Assembly: GCA_021805985.1 (NCBI GenBank)
Contig: JAJZDN010000010.1
Span: 1 to 64,000, forward strand
From: Planctomycetota bacterium
Lineage (GTDB): Bacteria; Planctomycetota; Phycisphaerae; WQYP01
Length of the DNA stretch: 64,000 nucleotides
Direction of reading: 5' to 3'
Numbering within the stretch: the first letter of the stretch is position 1; each line of letters begins with the position of its first letter. The notes below the pieces were generated by a model. The model was not told where the DNA came from. It ran no database searches and saw only the letters and a list, made by a program, of their open reading frames with translations. A program made the translations under genes and the position numbers. Shown here one piece after another: positions 38 to 15,880 of the stretch.

Positions 38-240
38 GGTGGCGTACTCCTAAAAAAGAACATTGAAAACACCCTTTAGGTTACGCCGCCTCTTTTCTCC
101 CGTCCACAACTTTTAATAGTAGCCCTTCCATGTTCCAGATTCAGCACTTAGAGTCCCACGTCATATCCTCCATTACCTCCACTGCCTCTGTGGTTAAATA
201 CCGTTACGTTGATTCACAAGAGGAAGCGGAGGCGTTGCTC

Positions 241-272
241 AATGACCAGTGACCAATGACCAGTGAGTAATG
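241..272. repeat. Degenerate heptad (7-bp) tandem repeat
   Basis: Four to five 7-bp units (aatgacc, agtgacc, aatgacc, agtgagt) run directly into the 5' end of the group II intron at 273. The period and base usage match other heptad arrays in this window at 7594 and 8201. Confidence 0.75.
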
Positions 273-973: not shown

Positions 974-1242
974 GATTTACCACCAAGGTACAAAGACACA
1001 AAGGACTATTGAACAATCCACAGATTTTGCAGATTAACCAGATTAAATAATTAAGCCGGCATTAAGGAATTGAATGCTGGGGGGTCTGCCCAACGAAATT
1101 GGAGCGCAGCGCTTAAAACTTCCTAACTCCTAACTCCTGCGTTCTCGCACCAACTCCTCCCCTTCTTCGTGTTCTTCGTGCCGTTGTGGTAAATCAGCCC
1201 CGTCACCGTTAATCTGTGCAAATCCGTAAAATCTGTGGATTC
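974..1242. repeat. Cluster of short-period (9-bp and 7-bp) degenerate repeats
   Basis: The gap between the intron and trpE holds several tandem degenerate arrays. Units of about 9 bp lie at 974-1006, 1018-1047 (ending in AGATT), 1162-1195 (CTTCGTGTT then CTTCGTGCC) and 1206-1242. A heptad array (CTAACTC units, followed by GCGTTCTCG) lies at 1119-1150. No gene is visible here. Confidence 0.6.
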
Positions 1243-3132: not shown

Positions 3133-4500
3133 TTGGCTTTCTTAAATTTCCATCCCTCCTGCGGGAATAATAGGCGGACGCTTCTGGCAACCCTGGTCCT
3201 GCTGGCCTCGGCGATGCTGCCCGCATGTTCGAAGCCGCCCGCGCACGTGGTGGCCGCACCGCCGCCGGTGAAAGTTGTTCTCGCCAAGTCGGAAGATGTC
3301 CCCGTTGATTTAACCAATATAGGCATTGTCCAAAGCGTGGCCTCGGTAACGCTGGAAACGCAGGTGGACGGTATTATTAATGCCGTGCTTGTAAAACCTG
3401 GAGCCAAAGTGCGAAAGGGCCAGATACTTTTCACACTGGACAATCGCCCCTTTGTGGCTGCCCTTTTGCAGGCCCAGGCGAATCTGGCCCAGGCGCAGGC
3501 CAACGTCCTTGTTGCCCAGGCCAAACTGGACGGTTATCAGGCGGCTTATGTTGACGCCGCCGCAGACTGGCAACGCGCGCAAAAAATGGGCATCACCAGC
3601 GGTGCGCTGGCGATTACACAGTTCGATGCCTACCATTCCACCTTTGATCAGGCCAAAGCTAATGTGGCCAATGGCAAGGCGTCGCTGGTGGCGGCCCGCA
3701 AAGCCGTAGATTCTGCCAAAGCGAATGTAACCACCGCACAAATCAATCTTGGTTACTGCACGGTTCGCTCTCCGTTGGATGGCAAAGCCGGCAATTTACA
3801 GGCCTTTGTGGGCAGCAATGTAAAAGCCACCACCACCAATCTTCTGGTCATTAACCAGATGCAACCGATTTATGTTTCATTTTCCCTGCCACAAAGTGAT
3901 CTTTATCAAATTCGTAAGGCCCAGCAAACGGATTCCAAGTTGCCCGTTTACGTTCGCGCCCATGGAGATCCCGGGCCTCCGTCGCGGGGTTTTTTGAGCT
4001 TCGTGGACAATGCAATAGATGATTCCACTGGCTCCATTCAACTCATGGGAACATTCGCCAATACCCATGAAGAGCTTTGGCCCGGAGAATTCGTCAATGC
4101 CACATTGCAGGTGGCGGTGCAGAAGCACGCGGTGGTGGTGCCGATTCAAGCTGTGCAAACGGGACAAAATGGTGTGTTTGTTTTTGTCGTTCAGAACCAT
4201 GTTGCCCGGATGCAATCCATCACTGAGAAGTTTTCCTATAACGGTATGGCGGTTATCAGCAAAGGATTGTCCGCCGGTGAAACGGTTGTCACCGATGGTC
4301 AGGAAAATGTTATTTCCGGCCAACGGGTGGAAGTGGTCACTAAGGGGCTTATTGCTCCGGCGGCCTCCGCCTCCCAAGCCAGTGCTGATCAGCCTGATGC
4401 GCACGGCGGTAGCACTAAGCCAGCTACTAAGCCGTCCGCTGGGCCAGCAACTGGGCCAGTTACTAAGCCGTCCGCAAGCACAAGCAAGGGCCGCCCGTGA
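3133..4500 (+). CDS. RND efflux periplasmic adaptor (membrane fusion lipoprotein)
   Basis: This is the adaptor subunit of a tripartite RND efflux pump. It links the inner-membrane permease to an outer-membrane channel. From the TTG start at 3133 (GGAG 7 nt upstream) the protein has 455 residues, with a short hydrophobic signal ending in the lipobox LPAC, so it is probably lipid-anchored. The body has the usual adaptor order: a barrel-sandwich (lipoyl-like) half, an Ala/Gln-rich alpha-hairpin with heptads (QAQANLAQAQANV), the second lipoyl half (YCTVRSPLDGKAGN), then beta-barrel and membrane-proximal domains. The C-terminus is a low-complexity tail rich in Pro, Ala, Thr and Lys. It overlaps the permease by 4 bp (GTGA), indicating translational coupling. 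An upstream ATG at 2953 is in frame, but the segment it adds looks non-coding. It is closest in organisation to MdtA/AcrA-type adaptors; the substrate is unknown. Confidence 0.88.
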   Translation: MAFLNFHPSCGNNRRTLLATLVLLASAMLPACSKPPAHVVAAPPPVKVVLAKSEDVPVDLTNIGIVQSVASVTLETQVDGIINAVLVKPGAKVRKGQILFTLDNRPFVAALLQAQANLAQAQANVLVAQAKLDGYQAAYVDAAADWQRAQKMGITSGALAITQFDAYHSTFDQAKANVANGKASLVAARKAVDSAKANVTTAQINLGYCTVRSPLDGKAGNLQAFVGSNVKATTTNLLVINQMQPIYVSFSLPQSDLYQIRKAQQTDSKLPVYVRAHGDPGPPSRGFLSFVDNAIDDSTGSIQLMGTFANTHEELWPGEFVNATLQVAVQKHAVVVPIQAVQTGQNGVFVFVVQNHVARMQSITEKFSYNGMAVISKGLSAGETVVTDGQENVISGQRVEVVTKGLIAPAASASQASADQPDAHGGSTKPATKPSAGPATGPVTKPSASTSKGRP

Positions 4501-7500
4501 ATCTATCTGAATTTTTCATTCGCCGTCCCGTGGCTACGACGCTCATGACCGTCTCATTGGTTCTGTTTGGAATCATGGCTTATTTGCAGTTGCCCGTCAG
4601 TGATTTGCCCGATGTCCCGCGTCCTACCATTGTGGTTAACGCGGGTTTGCCGGGGGCGAATCCGTATACCATGGCCTCATCCGTGGCGACTCCGCTGGAA
4701 AAGCAATTTACCCAGATTTCCGGTCTGGATTCGATGACCAGCCAAAGCTCGGAAGGGTCAACTTCCATTACGTTGAATTTTGCGCTGCATCGCAACATTA
4801 ACAACTGCGCCCAGGATGTGCAGTCCGCGATTTCGCGGGCGATGGGCCAATTACCCCACAATATGCCTAACCCGCCAACCTATCAGAAAGTGAATCCCGC
4901 CGATCAGCCCGTACTATTTCTGGCATTGGAATCCAAGACGCTGCCCATGTATACCGTTGATGATTACGCGGAAAATCTGCTGGCGGATTCCATCTCTGAA
5001 GTGGATGGCGTTTCAGCGGTGAATGTGTACGGAGCCCAAACCTACGCTGTGCAGATTCAAATCAACCCCAACGCCCTGGCCGCTCGGGGCATCGGCGTCG
5101 ATCAACTTACGCGGACCATTCAAGCCGCCAATGTCGATCAACCCACGGGTATCCTCTGGGGAGCGCATAAATCTTATCAGGTATACTCCAGTGGCCAGTT
5201 GACCAATGCGGCGGCTTATCGCTCGCTGATCATCCAATACAACAAAACAACGGGGGCGGTGGTGCGACTGGATCAGGTTGCCCATGTCATGAACAGTGTG
5301 GTGAATGACAAAATAATGGCCTGGTATTATTCCGACGGAAAATTCAGCCGCGCCATTATCCTGGCTATTCAGAAACAGCCAGGCGCTAATACCATTCAGG
5401 TGGTCAATAACATCGAAAAGCTGCTGCCGAAGTTACAGGCAAGCATTCCGCCTTCCGTAACGCTTACCACCATGTACGATAAATCGCTGGACATCCGTCA
5501 GGGCGTTTTTGACGTTAAATTCACCCTTATCCTGGCCTTGTCGCTGGTGACGCTTGTGATCTTCGGCTTTTTAAGAACTATTCGCGCCACGATCATTCCC
5601 GTTGCCGCCATGCCGCTGGCCATCATCGGCACGTTTGCCGTCATGTATGAAATGCACTTTACGATTGATTATTTTTCGCTTTTGGCGTTGACGCTGGCGG
5701 TGGGTTTTATTGTCGATGATGCCGTTGTCATGCTGGAAAATTCATATCGGCATATTGAAATGGGTAAAACGCCCATGCAGGCCACGCTCGACGCCTCTCG
5801 CGAAATCGGTTTTACCATTATTTCCATGACGGTGTCCCTGGTGGCGGTGTTTATTCCGATCATTTTTCTGGGCGGGCTTATTGGGCGACTGCTTAATGAA
5901 TTCGCCATCACCCTGGCCGCCGCCATATTATTTTCCGGCGCCATTTCCCTGACCCTTACGCCCATGCTTTGCAGCCGGATGTTGAGAGACCAGCGGGGCC
6001 AGCGCCACAATTTTCTATACCGTTTCATGGAACAATTATTTGATACCTTCCACAAAGTGTATCTCTGGATGCTTCGGGGCATGCTCAAGGCCCGTCTGCT
6101 GGTCGTGATACTTTCAGTGGCCACGTTGTATTTGACCATCCATTTACTGATCACAATTCCCGAAGGTTTTATTCCCGCAGGAGATAGCGGACATATTCTC
6201 GTGGCCACGCAGGCTCCAGAAGGAATATCCTTTCATTCACTGGTAAAGCACCAGTTGGCGCTGGGCGAGTTGGCGAAAAATAATGTCAATGTTAATAATT
6301 TCATGTCCTTGGCCGGTGGCGGCCCATTTGGAGCCAGCAATGGGGGCGACATGTTCTTCCACTTAAAGCCCGCCGGTGATCGACCCCTGACGACCGATCA
6401 GGTCATCACCCAACTGCGCCACAAGTTTGCCCGCGTGGTGGGCATCAAGACGTATATGCAGAATATTCCCCCCATTAACGTCAACGGCCAGTTGACCAAA
6501 GCGCAATATCAATTCACACTGCTTTCACCGGATACCACCGCACTTTTCAAATATGCGCCTTTGCTGACCGCCAAACTCCGCAAACTTCCCGGCCTGCAGG
6601 AGGTCAACAATGATCTGCTGATTAGAACACCCGAAGTCAACGTGGTACCGGATGATAATCAAGCGCAAATTCTTGGGGTAAGTCATCAGGCGATTGAAGA
6701 TGCGTTGGGGTTGGCGTACGGCCGGGAACAGATTTCCACCATTTATGATCCCCAGGCGCAATATGAAGTCATCATGGACGCCGAGCCAAAATACCAGCGA
6801 AATCCGCAGGACCTTTCGCTGTTGTACGTTACTTCCAACACCGGGAAATTGGTTCCACTCAATGCGGTAACGCATGTCACCAAAAGTCTTGGCCCGCTGA
6901 TTATCCATCAGACGGGCATCTTGCCGTCGGTGACCATCTCATTTAATGTCGCATCCAATTACTCCTTAAGCAATGCCGTGGATGAAATACAAAAGACCGC
7001 CAAGGCGACACTGCCGCCTCAGATCCTCACCAACTTCCAGGGGGAAGCTCAAATATTTAAGCAGGCGGTGATCAACATGGGGGAGCTGCTGCTGATTGCC
7101 ATCGTGGTCATTTATATTGTACTGGGCATACTGTATGAAAGTTTTATTCACCCCATTACCATCCTGACGGCGCTACCCTTTGCCGGTCTTGGTGCCCTGC
7201 TGACCTTGATGCTGTTTGGAAAAATTTTGGATTTGTATGCGTTTGTGGGGGTTATCATGCTTATTGGCCTGGTAAAGAAAAATGGCATCATGATGGTGGA
7301 TTTTGCCATTGCCCGGCGGGCCGCAGGCGATAGTCCCGTTGACGCGATTTACAACGCCTGCAGCGTGCGTTTTCGCCCCATCATGATGACCACCATGGCG
7401 GCTTTGTTTGGCACGCTGCCCATCGCTATCGGAGTTGGAGCCGACTCCGACACCCGGCGTCCGCTTGGCTTGGCGGTGGTGGGGGGGCTGCTGTTCTCCC

Positions 7501-7598
7501 AATTTCTCACCTTGTTTGTCACCCCGGTATTTTATATCTACCTGGAGCAATTCCAGACCTGGCTTAAGCGCCGCCGGGTTGCAGGGGGGAGGAGTTAG
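4497..7598 (+). CDS. RND multidrug efflux permease (HAE-1 family)
   Basis: This is a proton-driven inner-membrane transporter of 1033 residues, the standard RND length. It begins with the family signature (MNLSEFFIRRPVATTLM) and has two sets of transmembrane segments separated by two large periplasmic loops. Helix 4 carries the proton-relay acidic pair (VGFIVDDAVVMLEN). The second half has GLVKKNGIMMVDFAI, typical of MdtB/MdtC-like members. It pairs with the overlapping adaptor upstream. No outer-membrane factor gene follows, so the channel must be encoded elsewhere. The start is GTG overlapping the adaptor stop. The last codons and the stop TAG run into a heptad repeat array, suggesting the original C-terminus was altered by repeat insertion. 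Confidence 0.95.
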   Translation: MNLSEFFIRRPVATTLMTVSLVLFGIMAYLQLPVSDLPDVPRPTIVVNAGLPGANPYTMASSVATPLEKQFTQISGLDSMTSQSSEGSTSITLNFALHRNINNCAQDVQSAISRAMGQLPHNMPNPPTYQKVNPADQPVLFLALESKTLPMYTVDDYAENLLADSISEVDGVSAVNVYGAQTYAVQIQINPNALAARGIGVDQLTRTIQAANVDQPTGILWGAHKSYQVYSSGQLTNAAAYRSLIIQYNKTTGAVVRLDQVAHVMNSVVNDKIMAWYYSDGKFSRAIILAIQKQPGANTIQVVNNIEKLLPKLQASIPPSVTLTTMYDKSLDIRQGVFDVKFTLILALSLVTLVIFGFLRTIRATIIPVAAMPLAIIGTFAVMYEMHFTIDYFSLLALTLAVGFIVDDAVVMLENSYRHIEMGKTPMQATLDASREIGFTIISMTVSLVAVFIPIIFLGGLIGRLLNEFAITLAAAILFSGAISLTLTPMLCSRMLRDQRGQRHNFLYRFMEQLFDTFHKVYLWMLRGMLKARLLVVILSVATLYLTIHLLITIPEGFIPAGDSGHILVATQAPEGISFHSLVKHQLALGELAKNNVNVNNFMSLAGGGPFGASNGGDMFFHLKPAGDRPLTTDQVITQLRHKFARVVGIKTYMQNIPPINVNGQLTKAQYQFTLLSPDTTALFKYAPLLTAKLRKLPGLQEVNNDLLIRTPEVNVVPDDNQAQILGVSHQAIEDALGLAYGREQISTIYDPQAQYEVIMDAEPKYQRNPQDLSLLYVTSNTGKLVPLNAVTHVTKSLGPLIIHQTGILPSVTISFNVASNYSLSNAVDEIQKTAKATLPPQILTNFQGEAQIFKQAVINMGELLLIAIVVIYIVLGILYESFIHPITILTALPFAGLGALLTLMLFGKILDLYAFVGVIMLIGLVKKNGIMMVDFAIARRAAGDSPVDAIYNACSVRFRPIMMTTMAALFGTLPIAIGVGADSDTRRPLGLAVVGGLLFSQFLTLFVTPVFYIYLEQFQTWLKRRRVAGGRS

Positions 7599-7670
7599 GA
7601 GTTAGAAGTTAGAAGTTAGAAGTGATCCGTGATCCATGATCCGTGGTCCGTGCTCCGTGCTCCGTGCTGT
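7594..7670. repeat. Heptad tandem array, 11 in-phase units
   Basis: Eleven consecutive 7-bp units keep one phase: gttagga, three gttagaa, two gtgatcc, atgatcc, gtggtcc, two gtgctcc, gtgctgt. The sequence drifts from one unit type to another without losing the period. The first unit supplies the TAG stop codon of the RND permease. Confidence 0.85.
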
Positions 7671-7711
7671 CCTCGTCGTGTTAAATTTGTCGATGGAATT
7701 TGGGAGTGGTT

Positions 7712-8161
7712 ATGGAATTAATGGTTTGTGATCGCAACACTATTGAGCGGGGCATCGTGGTGCAGGGTACGTATGTTGTTATTTCCATCCATGACACTAA
7801 TCGGCCGCGGGCCTCGGTCAAACGGCAGGACGGTCTGCGGGATGTATTGTTCCTGGCGTTTAATGATGCAGAACCGAGTGCGGGCGTGGCGTTATCGGGG
7901 GAAGTTCAATCTATGACAGCTGCGCAGGCGGACCAGATTCGGAATTTTGTTCGTAAGCATGAGCATGAGGTGGACCTGATCGTGGTGCATTGCCACAGCG
8001 GCGTATCGCGCAGCCCGGCTGTAGCCGCAGCCATCAGTGATGCCCTGCATCTGGACTCGCGAAAATTCTGGCAGCTCTACACCCCGAACCGGTACGTGTA
8101 CCACACAGTCGCGGACGCGTTTGAACGCGCTGCGGCAAGGGGATCGCACGGTGCGGAGTAG
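7712..8161 (+). CDS. Dual-specificity/tyrosine phosphatase-like protein
   Basis: This is a 149-residue cytoplasmic protein with the cysteine-phosphatase signature VVHCHSGVSRSPAVAAAI, in which Cys94 and Arg100 form the CX5R loop. An upstream acidic segment (FLAFNDAE) may provide the general-acid Asp. It probably removes phosphate from proteins or another phosphoester. The size fits compact bacterial DSP-fold proteins. The start is the ATG at 7712, behind GGGAG; a TTG 12 bp upstream is less likely. The gene stands alone between two repeat-rich segments, so context gives no partner. The substrate is unknown. Confidence 0.75.
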   Translation: MELMVCDRNTIERGIVVQGTYVVISIHDTNRPRASVKRQDGLRDVLFLAFNDAEPSAGVALSGEVQSMTAAQADQIRNFVRKHEHEVDLIVVHCHSGVSRSPAVAAAISDALHLDSRKFWQLYTPNRYVYHTVADAFERAAARGSHGAE

Positions 8162-8200
8162 AGAACAGCAGAGACTAGCAGAGACCAGAAACTTATCAGG

Positions 8201-8425
8201 GATCACGGATCAAGGATCAATGAGCACGGAGCAATGGTCGCTGATCACTTCTAACTTCTGCGTTCTCGTTATCCCCTGTCACCTCGAACAGCATCCCGCA
8301 TTTAGCATTTAGCAGCGCCAGCGCCTCCAAAGCATTCTAACTTCTAACTCCTAACTCCTGCGTTCTCGCTATCCCGTGTCACCTCGAACCGCATCCCGCA
8401 TCCCGCATTTAGCATCTTGCATGTT
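8201..8425. repeat. Cluster of heptad arrays with a 45-bp direct repeat
   Basis: There are four heptad arrays: 8201-8270 (GATCACG, GATCAAG, GATCAAT and related, 10 units), 8291-8318 (GCATCCC/GCATTTA), 8335-8369 (TTCTAAC/TCCTAAC) and 8391-8425 (GCATCCC/GCATTTA/GCATCTT/GCATGTT). A non-heptad block of about 45 bp starting TGCGTTCTCG and containing GTCACCTCGAAC is repeated at about 8258-8303 and 8357-8400. No gene is visible. Confidence 0.8.
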
Positions 8426-8523
8426 GCGGAACCGCCGGTGTATCTATTTTGCCCGGCAGGTAACCCCGCAGGTTGCTGAATGTACTGCCAATACTGCATT
8501 TTCTGCAATTACTGAAAGCTGCT

Positions 8524-13282: not shown

Positions 13283-13317
13283 CTTCTAACTTCTAAATTC
13301 CAACTCCTAACTTCTCC
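13283..13317. repeat. Heptad tandem array
   Basis: Five units: CTTCTAA twice, ATTCCAA, CTCCTAA, CTTCTCC. It lies directly downstream of the AAA+ gene's stop. Confidence 0.75.
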
Positions 13318-13329
13318 GGGACCGCTGCT

Positions 13330-15660
13330 TCACTCGCGGCCAAAGCCGAAGTTTCTTGCGCGGCCTTGGCGCTTCGCTTCGGTTTCCTGTTCAAGCGCGG
13401 AAAGTAGTTCGGCGTGCGTTACGTCATTACTATCACTGGAACTAAGGTAATATATCGCTTGGCGGACCGTGGCAAAATCGCCGGGGGTTAGATCGGCGAT
13501 GCTGGTCAGGCGGCGATTGATGGGTTCGGTTATTGGCTCCGGGCATAGCTCGGATAATACTCTTTGGTAAAACGTCAGTTTGCCGGCGGCGTCCAGATAA
13601 TCAAATTGCAGCTTGAAGGTGAATCGGCGAATTGTGGCGGCATCCAGCGTCTCCATTAAGTTGGTGGCGCACACCAGAACGCCTCCGAAGTTTTCCATGG
13701 CGTGGAGCAATTCATTGACTTGCGTAATTTCCCAACTGCGGTGTGCCAACTGTCGGCTGTGAAACAGGCCGTCGGCTTCGTCGATAAATAAAATCGCCCG
13801 GTCTGCGGCGGCAGTGCGAAAGGCTTCGCGGATATTCTGTTCTGTGCCGCCGACATAGCGGCTAAGCAAATCGCCGGCCATGCAGGTTCGCACCGGACAA
13901 TCCACTTCGCGGCCGAGGAACTTTACGAATTGGGTTTTACCGGTACCAGATGGCCCGAAAAGTAACGCCGACAGGCGGGGAATGTCCTGGCCGGTTGTAT
14001 CTGTGGTAAAACCAGCCAACTCCTGATTGCGGCGAAATTTACGGATGGCCGCAAGAAAGCTTTGGGGTGAGACTGGGCCGCGCACATTCAGCCCGGCCAG
14101 CGCGTAGCCGCCCGTCGCCTTTGCTGCGGCAGCAGTCAAGTCGATGCCCAGAAGTTGGCAGTGCGGTGTTAGCAGCCGCTCAAGCGTATCGGCGGGCAGC
14201 GGCGCGGACCCGGTGCCACGCAGGCGGGCGTAGTTTCGCAGGGCCAAATCCACGCCGCCGGCGCTGACCAGAAATTGCCGCGCCAGCTGCTCCACCATGG
14301 CATCATCAATTATTTTCTCAAGGTGATACTGGCTTAGCAGATTTTTCCATACTTGGCAGCGTTGCTGGTGGGATAGCGGCTTAAACTCAATGGAATAATC
14401 AAACCGCCGGCGCGCCGATGGCGTGAGCCGTTCCGGCAGGCTGTTGGTGATCCAGATGCACGTGCTTTTCACCTGATCCAGAACGGTGTTAAGGGTATCT
14501 TTTTTTCCGCCACCAGGTTCTGAATACTCTCCCAGCAGGTCCCCTACACTCCCCGCTGATCCGGCCAGCATTTCATCGGCTTCGTCAATGAGAATGATAC
14601 TGCGGTCCCGATTCACCTGCCGATCGCAAACTTGCAGCGCTGCGAAGCGCGAGCCGCCGATTTCGCCATCGTAATCTTCCGGGACACGGATGCGGTAAAG
14701 GTCCATGCCCAGCTCGGCCGCCAGGGAAACAGCAAACGACGTTTTCCCGCCGCCGGGCACACCATAAAATAATAGGTTCAAACCCCGTTCCGGGTCGCGG
14801 CGGCGTATCAGTTCTTTGAGCATTTCTCCGTGCCCCTGCGTGAGCTTGCCGTACATCGCCCAGGGCAAGGCTGGATCGGCGTGACGGACGAAATATTTGG
14901 AGGCCAGCGGTTCTTCGGATAGGCCGGTGAGAAATGGCTCTAATTCCGAATTGAATTCCAAGTCATGCTCCAGACAGCCGAGGGTGCGCAGGCGACTGTT
15001 CTTCAACAGAAATTTTCCGCCCACCGCCAGCGGCGCTCCCAGCGCCATGCACATCAGGCGTACCCGTTCAATACGACTGCCACCGCCCTGCGGTCCGCTA
15101 AAGTCCATCCAGTTCCAGATGTCGGCATGGCGAATGTAGGCAATCAGCAGGAGGTCGGCTTCATGTTCTGTGAGGCAGAAAAATTGAACCATTTCTCCGA
15201 ATCGCCGGCACAGCACATCTTGGCCAGAGTCTGCTGCGGCTTGCTGGGCCAACCGCGGCAACTGTTTCTCCAGTGCGGCCAGCAGCGGAGGTTTCAGTGT
15301 CGCCTGGGCGATTGGGTCGTTCCAAAACTCCATCAGAAGATTTCCCGGCGCACTGTGGCCCGCTTCCAGATGGCTTCTGGTGCGTTCTCCCAAGGCATCC
15401 AGCGGGCATGAGGCCAGGGCCAGATCAATAGTTTCACGGCGGCCCAGCACGTAGATAATAAAGTTAAAAAAGTTGCAGTCCTGAATCTTACTTTTTTCCC
15501 GCCGAAGAAAATTAAGGACAAATTTGAGCGTCTGGGCGCACAGGAACGGATTGTCGCACAAGCGGGTGCGTTCCGCAGTCGGCTCTGGCAGCGTTTCGGT
15601 TGGCTCGCCCGCAGGCAGGGGGGCATCTAAATTCCTTAAAGTGGGCGGGCTAATCATCAC
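13330..15660 (-). CDS. Tandem AAA+ ATPase
   Basis: This is a 776-residue protein with two AAA+ modules. The first has Walker A GVPGGGKTS near residue 300 and Walker B ILIDEADEML. The second has Walker A GPSGTGKTQ near residue 568 and Walker B LFIDEADGLF, with sensor-1-like N residues (WITNSLPE; CATNLME). About 270 residues of helical sequence precede the first module. The double-ring layout resembles CDC48-type remodelling ATPases, but the N-terminal domain is not one I recognise. The start is GTG at 15660 (AAGGAG 5 nt upstream) or the next codon ATG. It stands alone as a transcription unit. The function is unknown; remodelling of proteins or complexes is the likely role. Confidence 0.85.
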   Translation of the reverse strand: MMISPPTLRNLDAPLPAGEPTETLPEPTAERTRLCDNPFLCAQTLKFVLNFLRREKSKIQDCNFFNFIIYVLGRRETIDLALASCPLDALGERTRSHLEAGHSAPGNLLMEFWNDPIAQATLKPPLLAALEKQLPRLAQQAAADSGQDVLCRRFGEMVQFFCLTEHEADLLLIAYIRHADIWNWMDFSGPQGGGSRIERVRLMCMALGAPLAVGGKFLLKNSRLRTLGCLEHDLEFNSELEPFLTGLSEEPLASKYFVRHADPALPWAMYGKLTQGHGEMLKELIRRRDPERGLNLLFYGVPGGGKTSFAVSLAAELGMDLYRIRVPEDYDGEIGGSRFAALQVCDRQVNRDRSIILIDEADEMLAGSAGSVGDLLGEYSEPGGGKKDTLNTVLDQVKSTCIWITNSLPERLTPSARRRFDYSIEFKPLSHQQRCQVWKNLLSQYHLEKIIDDAMVEQLARQFLVSAGGVDLALRNYARLRGTGSAPLPADTLERLLTPHCQLLGIDLTAAAAKATGGYALAGLNVRGPVSPQSFLAAIRKFRRNQELAGFTTDTTGQDIPRLSALLFGPSGTGKTQFVKFLGREVDCPVRTCMAGDLLSRYVGGTEQNIREAFRTAAADRAILFIDEADGLFHSRQLAHRSWEITQVNELLHAMENFGGVLVCATNLMETLDAATIRRFTFKLQFDYLDAAGKLTFYQRVLSELCPEPITEPINRRLTSIADLTPGDFATVRQAIYYLSSSDSNDVTHAELLSALEQETEAKRQGRARNFGFGRE

Positions 15661-15789: not shown

Positions 15790-15852
15790 GAACGGAAAAA
15801 TATTCTGATTTGCAAAAAATAAGGACGGCGGAGGACGCGGGCGGGGGGTGTA

Positions 15853-15880
15853 GGTTACGGGTTCCAGGTTACGGGTTACA
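15853..15880. repeat. Heptad tandem array
   Basis: Four units: GGTTACG, GGTTCCA, GGTTACG, GGTTACA. The array ends 4 bp before the stop of the polyprenyl synthase gene. Confidence 0.75.

Follow-up and report, generated by a model that had tools for sequence, protein, structure and literature searches.

The window, by which we mean the whole stretch of 64,000 bases analysed here, carries short tandem arrays of 7-bp units (heptads), a phosphatase-like gene and two matches to a hairpin core described below (Table 1). At each of the nine arrays listed in a sequence-only reading of this DNA, Tandem Repeats Finder (TRF) recovered the period of 7 bp that had been claimed, although the arrays at 13283 and 15852 are weak. 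For four arrays the span given by TRF is shorter than that in Table 1 (7593–7623, 7622–7666, 8195–8220 and 8337–8359). The array at 7590–7623 overlaps the end of an open reading frame (4497–7598) and provides its stop codon. Between 8195 and 8359 there is a G-rich array on the left and a C-rich array on the right, with differing words, and the degenerate core at 8428–8477 adjoins the arrays of the earlier list. The arrays at 240 and 1121 flank pieces of a group II intron (298–959; D1-D4-4 and domain V), which contain no ORF of more than 115 aa. The two weak arrays lie around a gene on the minus strand (13330–15660) for an AAA protein distantly like the anti-phage protein IteA (2e-31, far below the family cut-off).

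Table 1 Heptad arrays and associated features in the 64-kb window (CM, covariance model)
Feature	Position	Strand	Context	Basis
7-bp array, unit TGACCAG	240..266	.	just 5' of group II intron	TRF; intron by Rfam
7-bp array, unit TCCTAAC (= GTTAGGA on - strand)	1121..1138	-	3' of group II intron	TRF
7-bp array, GTTAGGA/GTTAGAA	7590..7623	+		TRF
7-bp array, GTGATCC drifting into GTGCTCC	7622..7668	+		TRF
Phosphatase-like gene	7700-8161			Pfam match below cut-off
7-bp array, GGATCAC/GGATCAA, G-rich on +	8195..8233	+	3' of phosphatase-like gene	TRF
Weak half core, hairpin 1 only	8286..8328	-		CM R1, 10.5 bits, E 0.051
7-bp array, GCATTTA	8298..8314	+		TRF
7-bp array, TTCTAAC/TCCTAAC (= GTTAGRA on - strand)	8335..8359	-		TRF
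7-bp array, CCGCATC	8389..8408	+		TRF
Degenerate genus-specific two-hairpin core	8428..8477	+		CM R1, 16.5 bits, E 2.6e-4 (for 10 kb searched, filters off)
Weak 7-bp array, CTTCTAA	13283..13315	-		TRF, 76% matches
Weak 7-bp array, AGGTTAC	15852..15880	+		TRF, 72% matches

Period, words and gene context of the arrays

Twenty stretches of the genome picked without regard to repeats (328,075 bases including the window) contain 30 segments with a lag of 7, whereas two Markov shuffles contain 1 each, bearing out the predicted excess of 7-bp periodicity. Lags of 5, 6, 8 and 10 gave 2–5 segments, and there are smaller excesses at lags 9 (16 segments), 14 (18) and 21 (10) and at 15 and 18. The 4.68-Mb genome contains 81 copies of the dimer GTTAGAAGTTAGAA and no copy of its backward-read control; GTTAGRA dimers number 338 genome-wide, again with none for the backward-read controls. 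They are present in all 8 members of the genus, in 8 of the 20 other family members and in 2 of the 33 other class members searched. The five main word families, in a sample partly chosen for repeats, are GTTAGRA, CCAGGTT, GTTACAG, GATCCGT and GATGCTA, and the same sample contains 9-bp families, AATACTGAT and CACAGATTN. Arrays of the latter constitute a second period within heptad-bearing spacers (L036, L033 and L068) and also occur in frame within a glycosyltransferase gene on contig C100.

A likeness to the heptad repeats of cyanobacteria had been suggested, and it holds: three consecutive copies of GTTAGRA are common to many Nostocales, which account for 43 of the 80 classed loci (group labels were assigned within this analysis, from record titles). 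Cyanobacterial loci gave 181 segments at lag 7 and no more than 15 at each of lags 5, 6 and 8–12, and five Nostocales genomes (G061–G065) have 344 to 1319 GTTAGRA dimers each. A vocabulary common across phyla can be rejected; the bait word aside, 4 of 85 word classes are common to the cyanobacterial loci and our genome, which is the chance level.

The sequence-only reading also held that the unit drifts within an array without loss of phase. In the genome's own arrays of at least 42 bp (n = 22) the mean identity is 0.90, 0.84, 0.80, 0.77 and 0.74 at lags of 7, 14, 21, 28 and 35, the first value being inflated because the arrays were selected on lag 7. This graded decay agrees with in-phase drift, but the switch from GTTAGAA to GTGATCC at 7622, given as an instance of it, may represent two abutting arrays. 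In cyanobacterial arrays the decay is nearly missing (0.89 to 0.85). Near-identical elements with a hairpin core vary by whole 7-bp units, as in two with identical outer flanks (L070 on C114 and L338 at the end of C5). The drift and these whole-unit differences together back the earlier proposal of a repeat-generating process that tolerates unit change. We also considered whether one arm is copied onto the other by folding back, and rejected it: in 23 cored elements the likeness of left arm to right arm does not exceed that of shuffled pairs (p = 0.94). At the phosphatase locus, the sister species G006 and G007 have kept the gene with different repeats around it and no clean empty site.

The arrays had been described as affecting only intergenic DNA. 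This is incorrect, since arrays also lie in frame within glycosyltransferase genes. Of 29 arrays in the unselected sample, 22 are intergenic, 6 lie within ORFs and 1 on a boundary, as judged with a crude ORF caller. The glycosyltransferase gene at C5:393–1892 contains two in-frame blocks of GTTAGRA arrays, palindromes and inverted arrays, with Pfam glycosyltransferase domains on both sides of the blocks. The same two loops are filled by other words (heptads and 9-mers) in a paralogue on C100 and a relative in G001, a homologue from another genus (G016) has no repeat blocks, and a similar block is found in a second and a third gene. The densest repeats (L031, L032 and L033, on C5, C34 and C87) are those of polysaccharide gene clusters, with glycosyltransferases and a putative polysaccharide exporter, where there is one core per few hundred to few thousand bases.

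Inverted pairs, hairpin cores and polarity

Adjacent GTTAGRA arrays at most 300 bp apart run plus then minus 29 times genome-wide and minus then plus 4 times, and the space between such inverted arrays often holds a two-hairpin core. By covariance model the genome has 96 cores, G007 has 54 and the six other genus members have 6–15 each, whilst matches outside the genus are weak and scattered. Pairing in hairpin 2 is retained through double changes at 3 pairs, and five cored elements fold better than every shuffle (z −3.9 to −9.4). Arms were analysed for the 84 cores of ~31 bits and more (an edge match, L356, was omitted); in almost every case the heptads are plus to the left of the core and minus to the right of it, regardless of word family. 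The exceptions have plus heptads on both sides (two of family A and two of family E) or a plus B array on the right (one). A second hairpin family, CCACCGGATTATCATCCGGTG (L034 and L070, on C133 and C114), shows paired changes in its stem and alternates with GTTAGRA arrays in modules of about 113 bp.

The inverted pairs have a polarity in that the G-rich unit comes first. The ratios of G-rich first to second are 14:3 in our genome, 2:0 in G007, 17:0 in cyanobacteria, 4:0 in Bacteroidota and 6:0 in other groups. Stretches fetched later gave 12:0 in cyanobacteria, 1:0 in a Thermoguttaceae genome and 6:0 in an Armatimonadota genome, plus a single tie, bringing the total outside the genus to 46:0; the Armatimonadota stretches had been selected for the word, a choice that leaves polarity unbiased. 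Contrary to the rule are the genome's own short-loop heptad hairpins (0:4), and heptad-armed repeats in the other groups are not strict (46:8). Ordinary intergenic inverted repeats show little or no bias, with ratios of 13:15, 55:45 and 46:28 (arms of at least 10, loops of at most 60) and a weak bias of 17:6, 34:28 and 33:13 for arms of at least 12 and loops of at most 150, so polarity is not a trait of all hairpins. Single arrays obey a weaker rule, their strand being G-rich when read outward from the nearer gene (divergent gaps 39:22, tandem 116:35 and 75:29). As this applies in convergent gaps too (71:34), the avoidance of Shine–Dalgarno sequences is rejected as the sole cause of the polarity.

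S23p genes enclosed by heptad arms

Many bacteria contain a unit of ~0.42 kb that consists of a G-rich heptad array, a gene of family PF05635 (S23p or 23S-IVP, a four-helix bundle) and the same heptad word inverted. On contig C5 of our genome a PF05635 gene is flanked by heptads, and 9 of 25 S23p genes in the genus are flanked at both ends by heptad arrays no more than 300 bp away, compared with 2 of 232 and 1 of 168 for all called genes. Matched inverted arms were found at 8 of 22 S23p loci of the genus (the fragments L416–L418 being omitted from the 25 matches) against 1 of 133 small genes (p = 4e-7). In 17 distant genomes, chosen for being heptad-rich, they were found at 11 of 30 S23p loci (those among the matches listed that had loci) against 7 of 148 control genes (p = 8e-6) and 0 of 28 HepT genes (p = 3e-4; 28 of 30 HepT loci were used, the fragments L496 and L497 being omitted). 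This last figure, from the same genomes, disposes of the idea that any accessory gene is so flanked. Exact inverted words of at least 12 bp span the gene at 18 of the 30 distant S23p loci, 5 of the 148 controls and none of the 28 HepT loci. The S23p arms are G-first in 17 cases and C-first in none.

On named plasmids, matched inverted arms are present at 12 of 18 S23p loci, Azospirillum lipoferum 4B included (18 of 26 matches were used; H3, H6, H19, H20 and H23–H26 were omitted, some as duplicates or partial). The 6 that fail include L501, with one arm, and L504, with imperfect repeats. S23p genes occur in 16 of the 17 heptad-rich distant genomes and in none of 14 well-known control genomes. 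Of 18 arm words, 14 are found again as dispersed arrays in their own genome, against 21 of 108 in other genomes (one word being the bait). The genome of the window has 6 S23p genes, none of them on the window's contig (C75); 2 have inverted heptad arms and the other 4 have none or an array on one side only. We know of no catalytic motif in S23p. Among solved structures the closest is XCC0516 of Xanthomonas campestris (2gsc, five chains; E = 2e-15), a homopentamer according to the available text of PMC4990558, in which proteins of the S23p/IVP family are given no known function.

The whole unit inserts together with its arms, and one clade keeps its word at unrelated sites. The S23p unit on a plasmid of Trichormus variabilis 0441 (L500) is absent from plasmids of Nostoc linckia NIES-25 and N. 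carneum NIES-2107 (L520 and L521), in which the flanks are 98–99% identical (BLAST) and 428 bp are lacking, heptads included. On the left of the insert the sequence ends AAAGTAAT and on the right it resumes TTGTAAT-TAACAAAT, whilst the empty site is AAAGTAATTAACAAAT. Thus GTAAT has been duplicated around the insert and 428 bp gained; this duplication of 5 bp was seen at a single site; 3 bp would fit at a second, and at the others the flanks have diverged. Plasmid E of Nostoc C052 bears an internally deleted copy of the unit at this site (L522). In Picosynechococcus PCC 7003 a unit lies within cas10-S23p-cmr3, where PCC 7002 has cas10-cmr3 without it, and in Nostoc C052 and ATCC 53789 two different units occupy neighbouring gaps of one operon, each gap being empty in the other strain. 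As the heptads are missing along with the unit in similar plasmids, they come in with the unit rather than serving as its target; insertion of S23p into pre-existing heptads is rejected, the empty sites at three places being heptad-free. L500 matches L499, L502 and the chromosomal L438 over the unit only (663–1078, 660–1078 and 647–1073; 78–84%), and the same unit, arms included, stands at four unrelated sites. Units whose S23p proteins are 79–85% identical have words in common (the TCAGGAG clade; the GGGAAAA/AAAGGGT pair) and distant units do not. We conclude that the S23p unit of ~0.42 kb, with inverted heptads as its boundaries, is an insertion element.

Origin of the arrays and relation to known repeats

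A reading of the heptads as free-standing satellites is not supported; they are inverted, polar arms of units that in many genomes enclose an S23p gene. We think it probable that the heptad arrays derive from small insertion units, as their arms or as what is left of those arms. Those of the window are most likely S23p-less derivatives that grow and drift by 7-bp steps, a descent that is argued from word, polarity and one internally deleted copy (L522) rather than from a trail of intermediates. Such derivatives in the window's genus, often with a hairpin core replacing the S23p gene, would be carried passively, and slippage by 7 nt would lengthen, shorten and alter the arms with their pairing preserved. 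The G-rich arm 5' of S23p (TCAGGAG, AGTAGGG and similar) is a putative ribosome-binding site; such a role would require the second arm to be C-rich in complement and would set the G-first polarity, which the derivatives would inherit. Pentameric S23p may act as a mobility helper alongside a host enzyme, and purifying selection would spare insertions only in intergenic gaps and in surface loops of proteins. The widest form of this proposal, to which we give an even chance, is that S23p defines an overlooked class of mobile unit in at least six phyla. Such a unit would enter gaps between operon genes and duplicate a short target there, would produce or bring along ends that are 7-bp repeats of almost any sequence, and would use its G-rich end as a ribosome-binding site; it would also be the source of the heptad satellites in this genus, in cyanobacteria and in xanthomonads. 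On this view the classical rRNA intervening sequences are those members that became trapped in 23S genes.

A simpler origin would be slipped-strand replication, in which polymerase slippage duplicates any 7-mer with a favoured step of 7 nt, the arrays are neutral debris and S23p units carry some by chance. A favoured step is an idea of Mrazek and co-workers (2007), as cited in the available text of PMC4692102 and PMC4679880. Slippage suits the many unrelated words of one period (275 arrays fall into 56 word classes), the graded drift and the gains and losses of whole units. It leaves unexplained the inverted pairing with strict G-first polarity, missing in ordinary hairpins, as well as the S23p association and the heptad-free empty sites, and it runs contrary to the arrival of arrays as complete arms on moving units, which is partly shown for the S23p units; we consider it unlikely as the whole account.

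Two further explanations are less probable again. The two-hairpin core could be a REP/BIME-like element moved by a RAYT-type Y1 transposase, with the heptads as flanking decoration, and the abundance of cores in the genus and the compensated pairing of hairpin 2 fit such an element. RAYT mobilisation is nevertheless rejected as none of the 7 Y1_Tnp genes has a heptad array or core hairpins within about 1.5 kb, and the core is genus-specific whereas the heptads and their polarity extend to distant phyla, so we hold a REP/BIME-like origin to be improbable. Slightly more improbable still are bidirectional terminators or RNA-processing hairpins selected between genes. Their case is made by the stability of the inverted hairpins of the five folded elements and by arrays near gene 3' ends, which are mostly G-rich on the gene strand, but gaps between convergent genes show no excess (1 of 18 assignable arrays in the unselected sample), the polarity is the same beside 5' ends and in divergent gaps, elements occur in frame within the glycosyltransferase genes, and spacers turn over completely between sister species.

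We know of no accepted origin for heptamer repeats. The insertion units proposed here resemble the 23S rRNA intervening sequences of Coxiella and Leptospira, with the same protein family, a similar size (428 nt in Coxiella) and pairing ends; in the available text of PMC4990558 the Coxiella sequence has 2–3 tandem heptamers, variable between strains, 5' of its S23p ORF, and the idea of a mobile element is cited for it. The intervening sequences differ in that they sit in 23S rRNA helices and are excised by RNase III, whereas the S23p units here sit between protein genes and have inverted heptad arms on both sides, many words and dispersed relatives without S23p. The cyanobacterial STRR, the GGGAATC repeats of Xanthomonas (with convergent pairs in 70 and 75 cases; PMC4692102, available text) and the TAACTGA repeats of Beggiatoaceae share with our arrays the 7-bp period, several or drifting units and a mainly intergenic position. 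The available accounts treat them as simple repeats or as possible quadruplexes or regulatory sites, and link them there neither to S23p nor to insertion. Heptad repeats and rRNA intervening sequences are each already known, and the link between S23p and heptads is the new part; in the available text of the literature searched there is no statement tying S23p genes outside rRNA to heptad-bounded insertion units, and the Coxiella paper notes the heptamers before S23p without generalising (PMC4990558). Joined together they form a single system open to testing, a mobile unit with ends defined by a period and not by a fixed sequence, found also in cyanobacteria and several other bacterial groups. 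The link, if true, would account for the recurrence of period 7, polarity and inverted pairing among unrelated bacteria and for the S23p gene inside rRNA intervening sequences.

The palindromic elements of Rickettsia are repeats inserted in frame within protein genes, like some arrays of this genome (a likeness of general description), and we know of no heptad arms or S23p gene in them. REP/BIME and MITE elements are likewise short, dispersed and palindromic and carry no gene; the present elements differ from them in their variable heptad arms and in that no REP-associated transposase was found nearby. Two other observations concern distant genomes. L504, L507 and L508 are S23p units within CRISPR operons of cyanobacterial plasmids, in the orders cas10-S23p-cmr3 and cas6-S23p-cas4, and a Thermoanaerobaculia MAG contains a nearly perfect inverted repeat (L197:3074–3159) whose arms switch word every 7 bp (GTTAGAA, CGATGAA, TGTTGAA, TCCAGAA).
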